A DNA stretch of 5,288 nucleotides, from positions 1 to 5,288 of the forward strand of contig CACZQQ010000350.1 in NCBI GenBank assembly GCA_902783355.1. The letters run 5' to 3'. This document shows positions 1,801-5,159 of this stretch, piece by piece. How positions within the stretch are numbered: position 1 is the first letter of the stretch; the number at the start of each line of letters is the position of its first letter. Both the position numbers and the translations under genes were made by a program. The notes beneath the pieces were generated by a model that was not told the DNA's origin, did not search any database, and saw only the letters and a list, made by a program, of their open reading frames with translations. The DNA comes from an uncultured bacterium. GTDB taxonomy: Bacteria; Verrucomicrobiota; Lentisphaeria; Oligosphaerales; Oligosphaeraceae.

Positions 1801-1821
1801 CAGGTCTATTGCTGAAGGCGG
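1801..1821 (+). repeat. Left copy of a direct repeat flanking the GGGAC/GTCCC element
   Basis: CAGGTCTATTGCTGAAGGCG followed by G matches the copy at 1903-1924 with two transitions and a one-base gap (19 of 22 aligned columns identical). The two copies bracket the inverted repeat almost exactly. Confidence 0.75.
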
Positions 1822-1825
1822 ATGC

Positions 1826-1902
1826 GTGGGACACATGGGACACATGGGACCTATGGGACAGGGCTTTTGTCCCACAAGTCCCACAAGTCCCATAGGTCCC
1901 AT
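1826..1902. repeat. Mirror array of 9-bp repeats forming a long imperfect hairpin
   Basis: GGGAC occurs at 1828, 1837, 1846 and 1855, exactly every 9 bases, with spacers ACAT, ACAT and CTAT. GTCCC then occurs at 1869, 1878, 1887 and 1896, again every 9 bases. The two halves are in perfect mirror register around 1864, so all four boxes can pair at once with mismatched 4-base spacers and a loop near GGGCTTT. A second register is stronger locally: ATGGGACCTATGGGAC (1844-1859) is the exact inverse complement of 1887-1902, a 16-bp perfect stem. The element sits in the probable leader of the UvrA-like gene. Its function is unknown: an RNA hairpin, a protein-binding array or a dispersed repeat family are all possible. 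Confidence 0.85.
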
Positions 1903-1924
1903 CAGGTCTGTTGCCGGAAGGCGG
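1903..1924 (+). repeat. Right copy of the direct repeat flanking the GGGAC/GTCCC element
   Basis: CAGGTCTGTTGCCGGAAGGC plus GG repeats the left copy at 1801-1821. The copy abuts the end of the inverted repeat (the 16-bp arm ends at 1902). This could be a decayed target duplication of an inserted element or part of the repeat unit itself. Confidence 0.75.
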
Positions 1925-1975: not shown

Positions 1976-4246
1976 ATGGAACCAGACGAAATCATCCTGA
2001 AGGGCGTGTCCGTCAACAACTTGAAGGGCATTGACCTTGTCTTGCCGAAGAACAGGCTGATAGTCTTCACGGGCGTCTCCGGCTCGGGCAAGAGCTCGCT
2101 TGTCTTCGACACGATCGGCGTGGAGTGCCAGCGGCAGATGTACGCCGCCTTTCCCGCCTATCTGCGCTATCGGATGCCGCGCTTCGAGCGCCCCGCCGCC
2201 GAAGAGATGCGCAACCTGACGGCAGCCGTCGTCATCGACCAGCAGCCCATGGGCAGCAATCCGCGTTCCACCATCGGGACGGTGACGGACATCGCGCCCC
2301 TCATCCGCCTCCTCTTCTCGCGCATCGGCGAGCCGCATGTCGGCGCCGCCGTCGACTTCTCCTACCAGAGCACCTTCGGCCTCTGCCCCGCCTGCCACGG
2401 CCTGGGCGAAAAGCTCTCCGTGGACGGCGACCGCATGATCGACCCGGAGAAGTCCCTCAACGACGGCGCGGTCCTCTTCAAGTACTTCTCCAAGAGCAAC
2501 TGGCAGTACATGTACTACACGCAGTCGGGGCTCTTCGACAACGACAAGCCGGTCAAGGACTACACGCCGGAGGAGTACCGCAATCTGCTCTACGGGCCGC
2601 CGGAGAAGGTGCGCGTCCCCTTCTATCTGAAGACGGGCACGGTCTACAGCGACTACGAGGGGCTTGTGCCGCGCTTCGAGCGCCTCTACATCAACCGCGA
2701 CCTGACCAAATTCCCCTCCGTCAGCATGGAGGAGGTCAACCGCTTCCTGGTCAACGCGCCCTGCGCGGAATGCCAGGGGACGGGCCTGAGCCAGAAGGCG
2801 CTCTCCTGCCGGATCGGCGGCCTCAACATCGCCGACTACCTCTCCATGCAGATCCGCGACCTCGTGCCGCTGCTGCGCGCCATCGACCACCCCGTCGGCG
2901 GCGCCATCGCGCGGCAGGCGGCCGACGCCCTCCAGAAGGTGGTCGACATCGGGCTGGGCTACCTGCCGCTGTCGCGACGGACCGACAGCCTCTCCGGCGG
3001 CGAGGCCAAGCGGCTCAAGATCGTGCGCTCGCTGCGCAGCAGCCTCAACAACACCACCTTCATCCTCGACGAGCCAAGCGCGGGCCTCCATCCCCACGAC
3101 GTGGCGCAGCTCAACCGCCTCCTCCTCGAACTGCGCGACCGCCACAACACGGTCCTTGTCGTGGAGCACAATCCCGCCGTCATCCGCATCGCCGACCAGG
3201 TGGTGGACCTCGGGCCGGAGGCGGGCCGCGGCGGCGGCGAAATCACCTACCAGGGAAGCGTGGCGGGCCTGCTGGAGAGCGGCACCGTCACCGCGCAGTG
3301 CCTGCGCAGACGCGTAGAAGCCAATCCCTCGCCGCGCCCATGGCGCGACGCCTTCGTCGTCGCCCACGCCCGCCGCCACAACCTCCAGGACATCACCGTG
3401 CGGATTCCGAAGGATGTGCTGACGGTGGTGACAGGCGTGGCGGGCTCCGGCAAGAGCACGCTCGTCTGCGAGGAGTTCGCGCCGCGCTGCGAGAAGGCCG
3501 TCTTCATCGACCGCAAGCCGCCCGGCGGCTCGGTGCGCTCCACGCCCGCCACCTACACGGGCTGCATGGACATCATCCGCCAGCTCTTCGCGAAGGCCAA
3601 CAGCGTCTCCGCCGCCATGTTCAGCTTCAATTCGGAGGGCGGCTGCCCCGTCTGCCACGGCAAGGGCGAGGTCACGCCGGACGTCGCCTTCGCGGATCCC
3701 GTCGCCATCCCCTGCGAGGCCTGCCATGGCGGCCGCTACAGCGCCGAGGCCCTCGCCCTCCTCTACAACGGCAAGAACATCCAGCAGGTCCTCAACATGA
3801 CCGTCCGCGAGGCGCTGGAGTTCTTCGCGGACCAGCCGCGCATCGTCAGACGCCTCCGCGCCATGGCCGACGTCGGCCTCGGCTACCTGACGTTGGGCCA
3901 GTCCACCGACACCCTCTCCGGCGGCGAAAACCAGCGCGTCAAGCTCGCCGAGGAACTCCACAAGTCCGGCCATGTCTACATCTTGGACGAGCCGACGGCG
4001 GGCCTCCATGCCGCCGACACGGACAAGCTGCTGAAACTGCTGCAGCAACTTGTCGACGCCGGCAACACGGTCGTGGTCGTCGAGCACAACCTGGAGGTCG
4101 TCGCCGCCGCCGACTGGCTCATCGACCTGGGGCCGGGCAGCGGCTCCGACGGCGGCCGCGTCGTCTTCGAAGGCACGCCGCAGCAGCTGCTGGCCTGCCC
4201 CGTCTCCTTCACCGCCGAGGCGCTCAGAAACGAATCTCTCATCTAA
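1976..4246 (+). CDS. UvrA paralogue lacking the UvrB-binding domain (class II, UvrA2-like)
   Basis: This is a 756-residue tandem ABC ATPase of the UvrA family; canonical UvrA has about 940. Nucleotide-binding domain I has Walker A GVSGSGKS (33-40), Q-loop IDQQP (Q89), a signature-domain CPAC at 137-140 and CAEC at 263-266, the ABC signature LSGGE (339-343), Walker B ILDEP (D365, E366) and the switch histidine H398. Domain II has Walker A GVAGSGKS (487-494), zinc-module cysteines C557, C560, C580 and C583, signature LSGGE (647-651), Walker B (D671, E672) and H704. After 'RIGEP' the sequence passes directly to the CPAC module, so the roughly 150-residue region holding the UvrB-binding domain and the first CxxC pair is absent. 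Such paralogues (UvrA2, DrrC) are linked to tolerance of DNA-damaging drugs, probably without standard UvrB loading. The protein is cytoplasmic and should bind DNA. The ATG at 1976 is chosen because homology starts within a few residues (ILKGVSVNNLKGI). An arginine (R513) replaces the Q-loop glutamine in domain II. Confidence 0.9.
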   Translation: MEPDEIILKGVSVNNLKGIDLVLPKNRLIVFTGVSGSGKSSLVFDTIGVECQRQMYAAFPAYLRYRMPRFERPAAEEMRNLTAAVVIDQQPMGSNPRSTIGTVTDIAPLIRLLFSRIGEPHVGAAVDFSYQSTFGLCPACHGLGEKLSVDGDRMIDPEKSLNDGAVLFKYFSKSNWQYMYYTQSGLFDNDKPVKDYTPEEYRNLLYGPPEKVRVPFYLKTGTVYSDYEGLVPRFERLYINRDLTKFPSVSMEEVNRFLVNAPCAECQGTGLSQKALSCRIGGLNIADYLSMQIRDLVPLLRAIDHPVGGAIARQAADALQKVVDIGLGYLPLSRRTDSLSGGEAKRLKIVRSLRSSLNNTTFILDEPSAGLHPHDVAQLNRLLLELRDRHNTVLVVEHNPAVIRIADQVVDLGPEAGRGGGEITYQGSVAGLLESGTVTAQCLRRRVEANPSPRPWRDAFVVAHARRHNLQDITVRIPKDVLTVVTGVAGSGKSTLVCEEFAPRCEKAVFIDRKPPGGSVRSTPATYTGCMDIIRQLFAKANSVSAAMFSFNSEGGCPVCHGKGEVTPDVAFADPVAIPCEACHGGRYSAEALALLYNGKNIQQVLNMTVREALEFFADQPRIVRRLRAMADVGLGYLTLGQSTDTLSGGENQRVKLAEELHKSGHVYILDEPTAGLHAADTDKLLKLLQQLVDAGNTVVVVEHNLEVVAAADWLIDLGPGSGSDGGRVVFEGTPQQLLACPVSFTAEALRNESLI

Positions 4247-4289: not shown

Positions 4290-5159
4290 ATGGAAAAGAA
4301 AGCCGGCTACGACCTGCATCTGCACACCGAATGGAGCTACGACGCGCTCGCCAAGGTGGAGGACTACTTCAGGGAGGCGCAGGCGCGCCGCCTGCGCGCC
4401 ATCGCCATCACCGACCACCATCACATGGACGGCTACGGCGACGTGCGCGCCTGCGCGAAGAAGTATCCCGACGTGCGCTTCATCGCGGGCGGCGAGCTGA
4501 CCGTCCACTGCCCGCTGGGCACCTATGACCTCGTCTGCCTCAACCTGCCTGTCGAGGAGACGCCCGCCCTCGCGCCGCTGTGGAAGACCTACCACGAATG
4601 GCAGCGCGCCTACGGCCACAGCTACTCCGTCAACCTCACGCGGCTCGGCTTCGACTTCGACGACGACGCGCGCCTCAAGCTCCTGCAGAGCTACCGCGCC
4701 CCGCGCATCATCGCCGTCCAGGGCAACACGCATGTGCGCTATGCGACCATCCGGGACGAATGCATCCGTCGCGGCTGGTGCGCCGACGAGGCCGCCTACA
4801 GGAAGCTCTACGCCTCCTTCGTCGACTGCCCCGACTACCCTGAATACGACTTCGTCATCCCCCATGTCAAGCGCGCCGGCGGCATCGTCATCTTCGCCCA
4901 CCCGTACGACTACTTCAAGCTGGCGGACGAGAAGCTGCTGGACGAACTGCGGGAGATGCTGCAGCTCGACGGCTTCGAATGCGCCCAGAGCAACATGCCT
5001 CCGGAGGCCAACGAGTACTACGGCGCCTACTGCAGGAAGCACGGCCTCCTCGCCTCCGCCGGCACCGACATCCACCACGCCCCCTTCGACCGCCTCGGCA
5101 CCCACGGCGGCCCCGAGGCGTGGCTGGACGCAATACTGGAACGCGTCACCCTCCATTAG
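4290..5159 (+). CDS. PHP-domain metal-dependent phosphoesterase
   Basis: This 289-residue protein has the full set of PHP (polymerase and histidinol phosphatase) metal-site motifs. They are H10-x-H12 in YDLHLHTEWSYD, D42-H43 in AITDHHH, E69 and H73 in GGELTVH, H148 in the NTHVRYA segment (equivalent to the 'RPHIAR' histidine of YciV/RNase AM-type proteins), H204 in IVIFAHPYDY, and D260-x-H262 in GTDIHH. Family members bind two or three metal ions and hydrolyse phosphomonoesters or phosphodiesters: histidinol phosphate, nucleotides, or RNA and DNA ends. The architecture (short core, inserted helical region before the AHP motif) is closest to the YciV/TrpH group, but the substrate cannot be read from the sequence. 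No signal peptide or membrane segment is visible, so it is cytoplasmic. It follows the UvrA-like gene by 43 bases with no terminator, suggesting one transcript and possibly a shared role. Confidence 0.85.
   Translation: MEKKAGYDLHLHTEWSYDALAKVEDYFREAQARRLRAIAITDHHHMDGYGDVRACAKKYPDVRFIAGGELTVHCPLGTYDLVCLNLPVEETPALAPLWKTYHEWQRAYGHSYSVNLTRLGFDFDDDARLKLLQSYRAPRIIAVQGNTHVRYATIRDECIRRGWCADEAAYRKLYASFVDCPDYPEYDFVIPHVKRAGGIVIFAHPYDYFKLADEKLLDELREMLQLDGFECAQSNMPPEANEYYGAYCRKHGLLASAGTDIHHAPFDRLGTHGGPEAWLDAILERVTLH

Follow-up and report, generated by a model that had tools for sequence, protein, structure and literature searches.

TGGGAC box arrays in Victivallales-like bacteria: an inverted array beside a UvrA-like gene as a probable member of a repeat family scattered between genes

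The array and its setting

The stretch of DNA analysed here (5,288 nt; hereafter, the window) carries three genes with Pfam matches, which specify an HTH_3 protein, a UvrA-like ABC ATPase and, following the latter, a PHP-domain protein. In the gap between the divergent HTH_3 and UvrA-like genes sits an array of short boxes organised in two arms (Table 1). From the end of the array (1902) to the likely ATG of the UvrA-like gene (1976), the distance is 73 bp. The UvrA-like frame is open upstream through the array, because nine is a multiple of three; we have taken this extension to be non-coding, given that alignments with most homologues begin within residues 1-10 counted from the 1976 start. 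It is possible that the array belongs to the leader of the UvrA-like gene, and it also faces the divergent HTH gene. In 1560-2000, we found neither a sigma-70-like promoter nor a T-tract intrinsic terminator after the stem.

Table 1. Coordinates of the array, its flanking repeats and the neighbouring genes in the window.
Feature	Position	Strand	Basis or remark
Open frame at the window start, 331 aa	3-998		no Pfam match at E 0.001
Divergent HTH_3 protein gene, 177 aa	1028..1561	-	Pfam
Imperfect direct repeat flanking the array, left copy, CAGGTCTATTGCTGAAGGCGG	1801..1821	+	
Left arm: four TGGGAC boxes, 9-bp period	1827..1860	+	direct reading, TRF
Alternative 16-bp perfect stem, left half (less stable register)	1844..1859	+	partner 1887-1902
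8-nt centre between the arms, GGGCTTTT	1861..1868	.	direct reading
Right arm: four GTCCCA boxes, 9-bp period	1869..1902	-	direct reading, TRF
Alternative 16-bp perfect stem, right half	1887..1902	+	partner 1844-1859
Imperfect direct repeat flanking the array, right copy, CAGGTCTGTTGCCGGAAGGCGG	1903..1924	+	
UvrA-like ABC ATPase gene, downstream of the array	1976..4246	+	Pfam, homologue alignment

The GGGAC boxes of the left arm start at 1828, 1837, 1846 and 1855, and the GTCCC boxes of the right arm at 1869, 1878, 1887 and 1896. All of these positions agree with the original prediction of eight pentamer boxes in exact 9-bp phase, and TRF returns two concordant 9-bp arrays (1827-1860 and 1869-1901). 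That such regularity is not due to chance was borne out: the window holds six matches to ATGGGACNNATGGGAC (at most three mismatches) where 0.34 are expected, and at least six occurred in none of 200 shuffles. The “perfect mirror register” of the two halves holds for the boxes but not for the spacers between them, which mismatch in that register (ACA, ACA and CTA in the left arm; CTA, TTG and TTG in the right arm when reverse-complemented).

The two copies of the direct repeat that flanks the array (1801-1821 and 1903-1924) align with 19 matches, two mismatches and one gap, giving a local score of 13; when the same geometry is placed at 4790 other positions in the window, the score never exceeds 11. 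This imperfect 21/22-bp repeat is the only target-duplication candidate at the window array. A flanking direct repeat of this kind is present in one of 106 arrays tested, namely the window array itself; when the repeat was sought as a dispersed motif, two viral contigs matched, without arrays nearby. No flanking inverted repeat scoring at least 9 was found in the 160 bp searched on each side of the window copy.

Folded as RNA, the section 1777-1975 reaches -77.9 kcal/mol (z -4.2). The predicted 16-bp perfect stem (1844-1859 with 1887-1902) is present, and the two mutually exclusive registers proposed for the array both exist, but they are unbalanced: over 1795-1935, the register pairing box n with box n comes to -69.3 kcal/mol versus -62.4 kcal/mol with the 16-bp stem enforced, a gap of 6.9 kcal/mol that favours the former. 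We have rejected a balanced RNA switch on these fold energies. The wider suggestion of an RNA switch also fails to find support in Rfam, where no family scored above the gathering score over 1700-2100 and only three sub-threshold microRNA matches appeared, or in the spacers, the complementarity of which is marginal. In 31 inverted elements, spacer complementarity between the arms amounts to 94 versus 84.5 +/- 5.0 in within-genome shuffles, a value reached in 83 of 2000 shuffles, with the signal coming (by eye) mainly from G403.

Arrays in related genomes

A search of genome contigs for the UvrA-like protein yielded 49 loci of 30-43% identity, nearly all in other phyla. A Roseibacillus locus from the UvrA-like search gave access to a draw of 387 genomes of the phylum, and a set of 47 genomes of one order was centred on G233, which has the best PHP match (63%). 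Five of the 70 PHP relatives are named: two Victivallales, two Lentisphaeria and one Chthoniobacteraceae; we infer that the 47-genome order is Victivallales or a close sister. The HTH_3 family of the window occurs in one to seven copies in 30 of these 47 genomes, with identities of 25-45% among the matches listed; because of these multiple copies, we assigned no HTH orthologue. A 1232-bp contig encodes an HTH protein that is 99% identical.

Arrays of the same kind are dispersed in these relatives. Direct arrays of three TGGGACNNN units occur in 25 of the 47 order genomes, with 1 to 228 overlapping matches per genome; the reversed-pattern control gave none in 41 of the 47, the non-zero genomes being G084, G264, G285, G390, G391 and G399. 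Inverted pairs of the form (GGGAC)n..(GTCCC)n, with two boxes each, are present in nine of the 47 (reversed control: zero in all), and the opposite order, (GTCCC)n..(GGGAC)n, in four (control: zero). In the phylum draw, arrays occur in 27 of the 387 genomes and control matches in seven; by our own count, the former divide into 11 of 25 genomes inside the order and 16 of 362 outside. The background set, reached via UvrA-like loci and consisting mostly of other phyla, has arrays in none of its 41 genomes and a single control match (G448). The raw counts include coding repeats, because some genome matches (L152, L159) lie in long ORFs. Many of the viral-contig matches are, by eye, coding-type repeats (MGQ, DGT, MGP), and the raw viral-contig counts include these as well. 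The suggestion that the array belongs to a dispersed repeat family of its lineage is strongly supported in the related genomes (25/47 versus 0/41 in the background), where the arrays are confined neither to a single genome nor to a single locus. The opposite-order arrays L187, L188, L190 and L191 (G222, G315, G409) share a GC-rich core of the GCCCCAAACGCGCGCCGCCGGATCG type.

Placement was assessed in 100 stretches around the matches listed, from 12 genomes, together with the window, using a codon-usage gene caller written for this analysis. Among the matches listed, there are 111 distinct arrays, i.e., 82 direct, 24 of the (GGGAC)n..(GTCCC)n type and five of opposite order; seven are coding, 13 lie at an edge, and 53, 21 and 17 lie in tandem, convergent and divergent gaps, respectively. 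The arrays are thus intergenic: with the edge arrays excluded, seven of 98 (among the matches listed) are coding, versus a coding density of 78%. Of the 23 non-coding inverted arrays, the window copy included, eight lie between convergent genes; among the other gaps, 16 of 128 are convergent (Fisher p 0.013, post hoc). The 40 direct arrays in tandem gaps have GGGAC in the sense strand in 13 cases and antisense in 27 (p 0.038, post hoc). Of the sense arrays, nine lie closer to the stop and four closer to the start; of the antisense arrays, 20 lie closer to the start and seven closer to the stop, so that strand and position are associated (Fisher p 0.015, post hoc). All three p values are uncorrected for multiple tests.

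Run length ranges from 2 to 19 units. Runs of 2, 3, 4 and 5 units number 44, 65, 28 and 12 in loci that were selected by at least three units, and 16, 8, 9 and 0 in loci fetched by element ends, in which overlaps are unmerged. One array (G401 C41) consists of 11 units with identical spacers.

Carrier elements

By BLAST among the loci, arrays were found inside dispersed units of ~150-190 bp. Seven copies of such a unit were aligned in G315, some with ends of the form GCCGGCGAAAA..TTTTCGCCGGC, while the G400/G401/G402/G353 clade has units with 23-bp inverted ends (GGGAATTATATC[G/T]TTAACTTGCC and the complement), and the units in G360 have ends that differ from both types. As the array-bearing units in G315 and G360 have different ends, a single MITE does not explain all arrays. 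In L396-L400 (G360), the arrays lie within larger dispersed units of other short repeats, of the GACAAGGTGT and CTTAATC..CGGCACGCTTA types.

The 16-nt core of the clade's inverted ends, with one mismatch allowed, gave 129 matches in four of seven genomes and none in the control. Thirty end-core loci and 20 further stretches, chosen mostly for paired ends, provided 24 complete elements of 79-277 bp. Six of the 24 are flanked by AT-rich, 8-bp target duplications matching at 7-8 of the 8 bases, versus 0.5 expected from shuffles, six having been reached in none of 5000; in four elements, the duplication is perfect (TAATATAT, AAAGTTTA, TAAAATTT and ATTTTTAT). The other 18 show no target duplication at 7 of 8 bases. 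At a partly orthologous site, G353 lacks the element that is present in G400 and has 46 bp of unrelated sequence in its place. No transposase was found within the 1.6-kb pair of ends in L454, the one long pair read in these fragmented genomes; its 356-aa ORF appears by eye to specify a GntR/LacI-like regulator. A second long pair of ends, in L456, is 3.6 kb apart.

At least three boxes occur in 15 of the 24 elements, which were searched with an end motif derived from array-bearing elements; in total, there are 107 boxes versus 7.8 in shuffles. In 14 of the 15 box-bearing elements, plus boxes are followed by minus boxes, with one to twelve boxes per arm, and in eight of the 15 the centre step is exactly 24 bp. 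The remaining nine elements hold fewer than three boxes, and arrays are therefore not required for mobility. Since some elements that share the ends have other interiors, the array is a module and a non-essential part of the element.

Bacterial MITEs (RUP, NEMIS, ERIC and others), as outlined in the sections of PMC3733652 devoted to them, are 70-300 bp long with terminal inverted repeats of 15-30 bp. The elements described here resemble them, as far as those sections go, in overall size, the length of the inverted ends, the lack of coding capacity, the location beside genes and the strong secondary structure, and differ from the MITEs listed there in that the interior is often an expandable 9-bp box array, which also occurs in units with other ends. 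Terminal inverted repeats are found in the relatives but not in the window copy, and target-site duplications in the relatives (6/24). Identical 23-bp ends around a different, box-free interior were seen in L426, L460, L461, L466, L467 and L468.

Box conservation and the meaning of the arrays

In elements fetched by their ends, the five GGGAC positions recur 9 bp on at frequencies of 0.78, 0.65, 0.72, 0.67 and 0.86, versus 0.39, 0.33, 0.23 and 0.44 at the four positions of the spacer (107 anchors). The leading T varies more in these elements, because some units read CGGGAC. The genome-locus sets are biased towards exact boxes, most loci having been fetched by exact triple boxes. Read with that bias, the unit between exact boxes 18 bp apart is itself exact in 379 of 426 cases, and adjacent units differ at 22-48% per spacer site versus 0.2-5% per box site; arrays without GTCCC nearby show a similar contrast (165 units, equally biased). 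Because the box is kept in arrays without GTCCC, pairing alone does not hold it constant, and because the spacers vary, slippage alone is insufficient, as it would copy the spacers too. Judged from these sequence comparisons, the contrast between box and spacer calls for more than a hairpin, a G-quadruplex or slippage by itself, and the simplest reading would be that a putative factor recognises each box. The earlier idea of an array of protein sites thereby gains indirect support, through boxes conserved beyond the spacers even when an inverted partner is missing, the factor itself being inferred.

The arrays of the relatives are dispersed, lie between genes, keep their boxes and, in one clade, are carried in MITE-like elements. 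The window array is probably one copy of this dispersed, intergenic repeat family of Victivallales-like bacteria, with boxes that would act as factor sites and are in part carried by elements. Its unit is nine nucleotides long, TGGGAC followed by a free spacer of 3 nt, and occurs in runs of 2-19 units, partly in inverted pairs; a putative sequence-specific factor would bind the boxes, so that the box would be kept while the spacers drift. Transposition of the carrier element, as well as recombination, may bring arrays to new loci, where gain or loss of units may later change their length. The window copy would have been inserted between the HTH and UvrA-like genes, and both might then be insulated or tuned by the bound factor or, if transcription crosses the array, by a stable hairpin. 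In a bolder and unlikely version, the arrays are mobile, expandable regulatory modules read by a dedicated TGGGAC-binding protein, the sites being carried by several unrelated MITE families beside tens of genes per genome, which would amount to a transposon-wired network or to chromosome-wide, initiator-like iterons; as a particular form of this, dispersed iterons would serve to decoy phage initiators.

Neutral expansion, i.e., slippage and unequal exchange within a mobile element with boxes devoid of function, would sit well with the highly variable run length (2-19), the MITE-like carriers and homogeneous arrays such as the 11 identical-spacer units of G401 C41. We nevertheless hold it to be unlikely, given that spacers diverge so much more than boxes between adjacent units (in the biased set) and that recurrence in end-fetched elements is 0.65-0.86 for the box against 0.23-0.44 for the spacer. 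An action at the RNA level, in which the inverted arrays, once transcribed, fold into a long hairpin and thereby terminate transcription both ways or protect the ends of mRNAs, is about as unlikely as neutral expansion. The strong fold of the window (z -4.2) and the enrichment of inverted arrays between convergent genes (8/23 versus 16/128; p 0.013) speak for it, as do six arrays (four inverted; all six from G394) that have both stop codons closer than 60 bp, but no T-tract terminator was found in 1560-2000, the window copy lies between divergent genes, direct arrays are the majority (82 of 111 among the matches listed), spacer covariation between the arms is weak, and the constraint on the box persists in arrays without GTCCC nearby.

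A G-quadruplex on either strand could form from the four GGG runs with 6-nt loops in each arm of the window array, as in the GGGNATC repeat family. The passages of PMC4692102 on these repeats of Xanthomonas and Nostoc describe G-rich short units dispersed between genes in variable number, with a strand and position bias beside starts and stops, which the bias of our 40 direct arrays (p 0.015) resembles. According to the same passages, however, the GGGNATC unit has 7 nt and a preference for four copies, versus a 9-nt TGGGACNNN unit with free spacers and no clear preference in the present family; moreover, GGGNATC repeats are described there as generally not associated with mobile elements, unlike the many arrays that lie inside elements with terminal inverted repeats in one clade. 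Conservation of the A and C of the box is roughly on a par with that of the Gs, changes within the box are most often tolerated at its first two Gs (in the biased genome-locus set), run lengths show no clear peak at four units, and ViennaRNA with quadruplexes allowed chose none in either arm. As a selected trait, the quadruplex is disfavoured by the A and C conservation and by the run lengths, and we regard this explanation as very improbable.

The preferred reading, an element-carried family of boxes recognised by a factor, has further parallels. Several phyla are known to have dispersed arrays of short units. In the passages of PMC4679880 that treat them, the TAACTGA repeats of Beggiatoaceae, some Cyanobacteria and Bacteroidetes are intergenic arrays of heptamers, with between two and dozens of copies and many loci per genome, for which a binding factor is likewise suspected. 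They differ in motif and, in Maribeggiatoa, in lying mostly just upstream of starts and being nearly all direct; those passages report no carrier element, unlike what we find for the present arrays. REP and REPIN palindromes with GTAG or CGTC tags, reported also in a Verrucomicrobia species, are similarly dispersed and extragenic in the account of them in PMC3733652; unlike those, the window has no GTAG or CGTC tag in 1822-1905 by direct reading, and its stem is made of repeated boxes. We consider the arrays a real dispersed family, of known dispersed-repeat and MITE kinds, that is apparently undescribed as far as we have searched: in the open literature covered, no paper contains any of six 15-16-nt array strings, and among the matches listed, none describes TGGGAC arrays in its title or opening abstract lines. 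A box conserved apart from its spacers inside mobile elements makes (TGGGACNNN)n a ready probe with which a putative reader could be sought, and natural variants in presence or copy number could be used to test effects on adjacent genes. For the little-studied Lentisphaeria-like gut bacteria, the elements add a marked family of MITEs that has clear ends and, in some copies, target duplications.

Viral contigs provide a different lead, in which the arrays would derive from, or imitate, replication origins of phages or plasmids, as iterons bound by an initiator of the primase-helicase type. Presumed phage origin iterons beside VapE/DUF5906-type primase-helicases likewise consist of 9-bp-periodic hexamers in inverted (GGGAC)n..(GTCCC)n order; they adjoin the primase and mostly have a longer centre, while the present arrays are dispersed and away from the primases tested. 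The inverted TGGGAC arrays of viral contigs adjoin or overlap the frame of primase/helicase genes in eight of eight ORFs scanned with PHROGs (four of the eight also with Pfam), these belonging to 11 loci that we chose by eye among 53, and 15 of 20 further ORFs, from 37 new loci with some near-duplicates, are of the primase/helicase type, the five among the 20 without such a match being those of L211, L212, L219, L229 and L230. The layout on viral contigs is likely a replication origin. Carrying this over to the window is highly doubtful, since its array does not adjoin a primase-type gene. Within the order, no phage-origin link was found at the 28 primase loci of the phrog_1156 family, the one family covered, all of which lack a 9-bp TGGGAC array. 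TGGGAC was also the search key, so the common motif may reflect how the loci were selected. None of ten named phages with related primases, taken from 60 matches listed, carries TGGGAC arrays in the 420 bp that follow the gene on its 3' side, and four of the ten have, in that same place, 9-bp-periodic hexamers of other sequence.

The viral-contig loci with inverted TGGGAC arrays beside primase/helicase genes are L053, L054, L063, L066, L070, L080, L083, L102 and most of the 20 among L203-L231. The 9-bp-periodic boxes of other sequence are those of Acidithiobacillus phage AcaML1, Yersinia phage YeP5, Bdellovibrio phage phi1422 and Mycobacterium phage Kashi_VT1.
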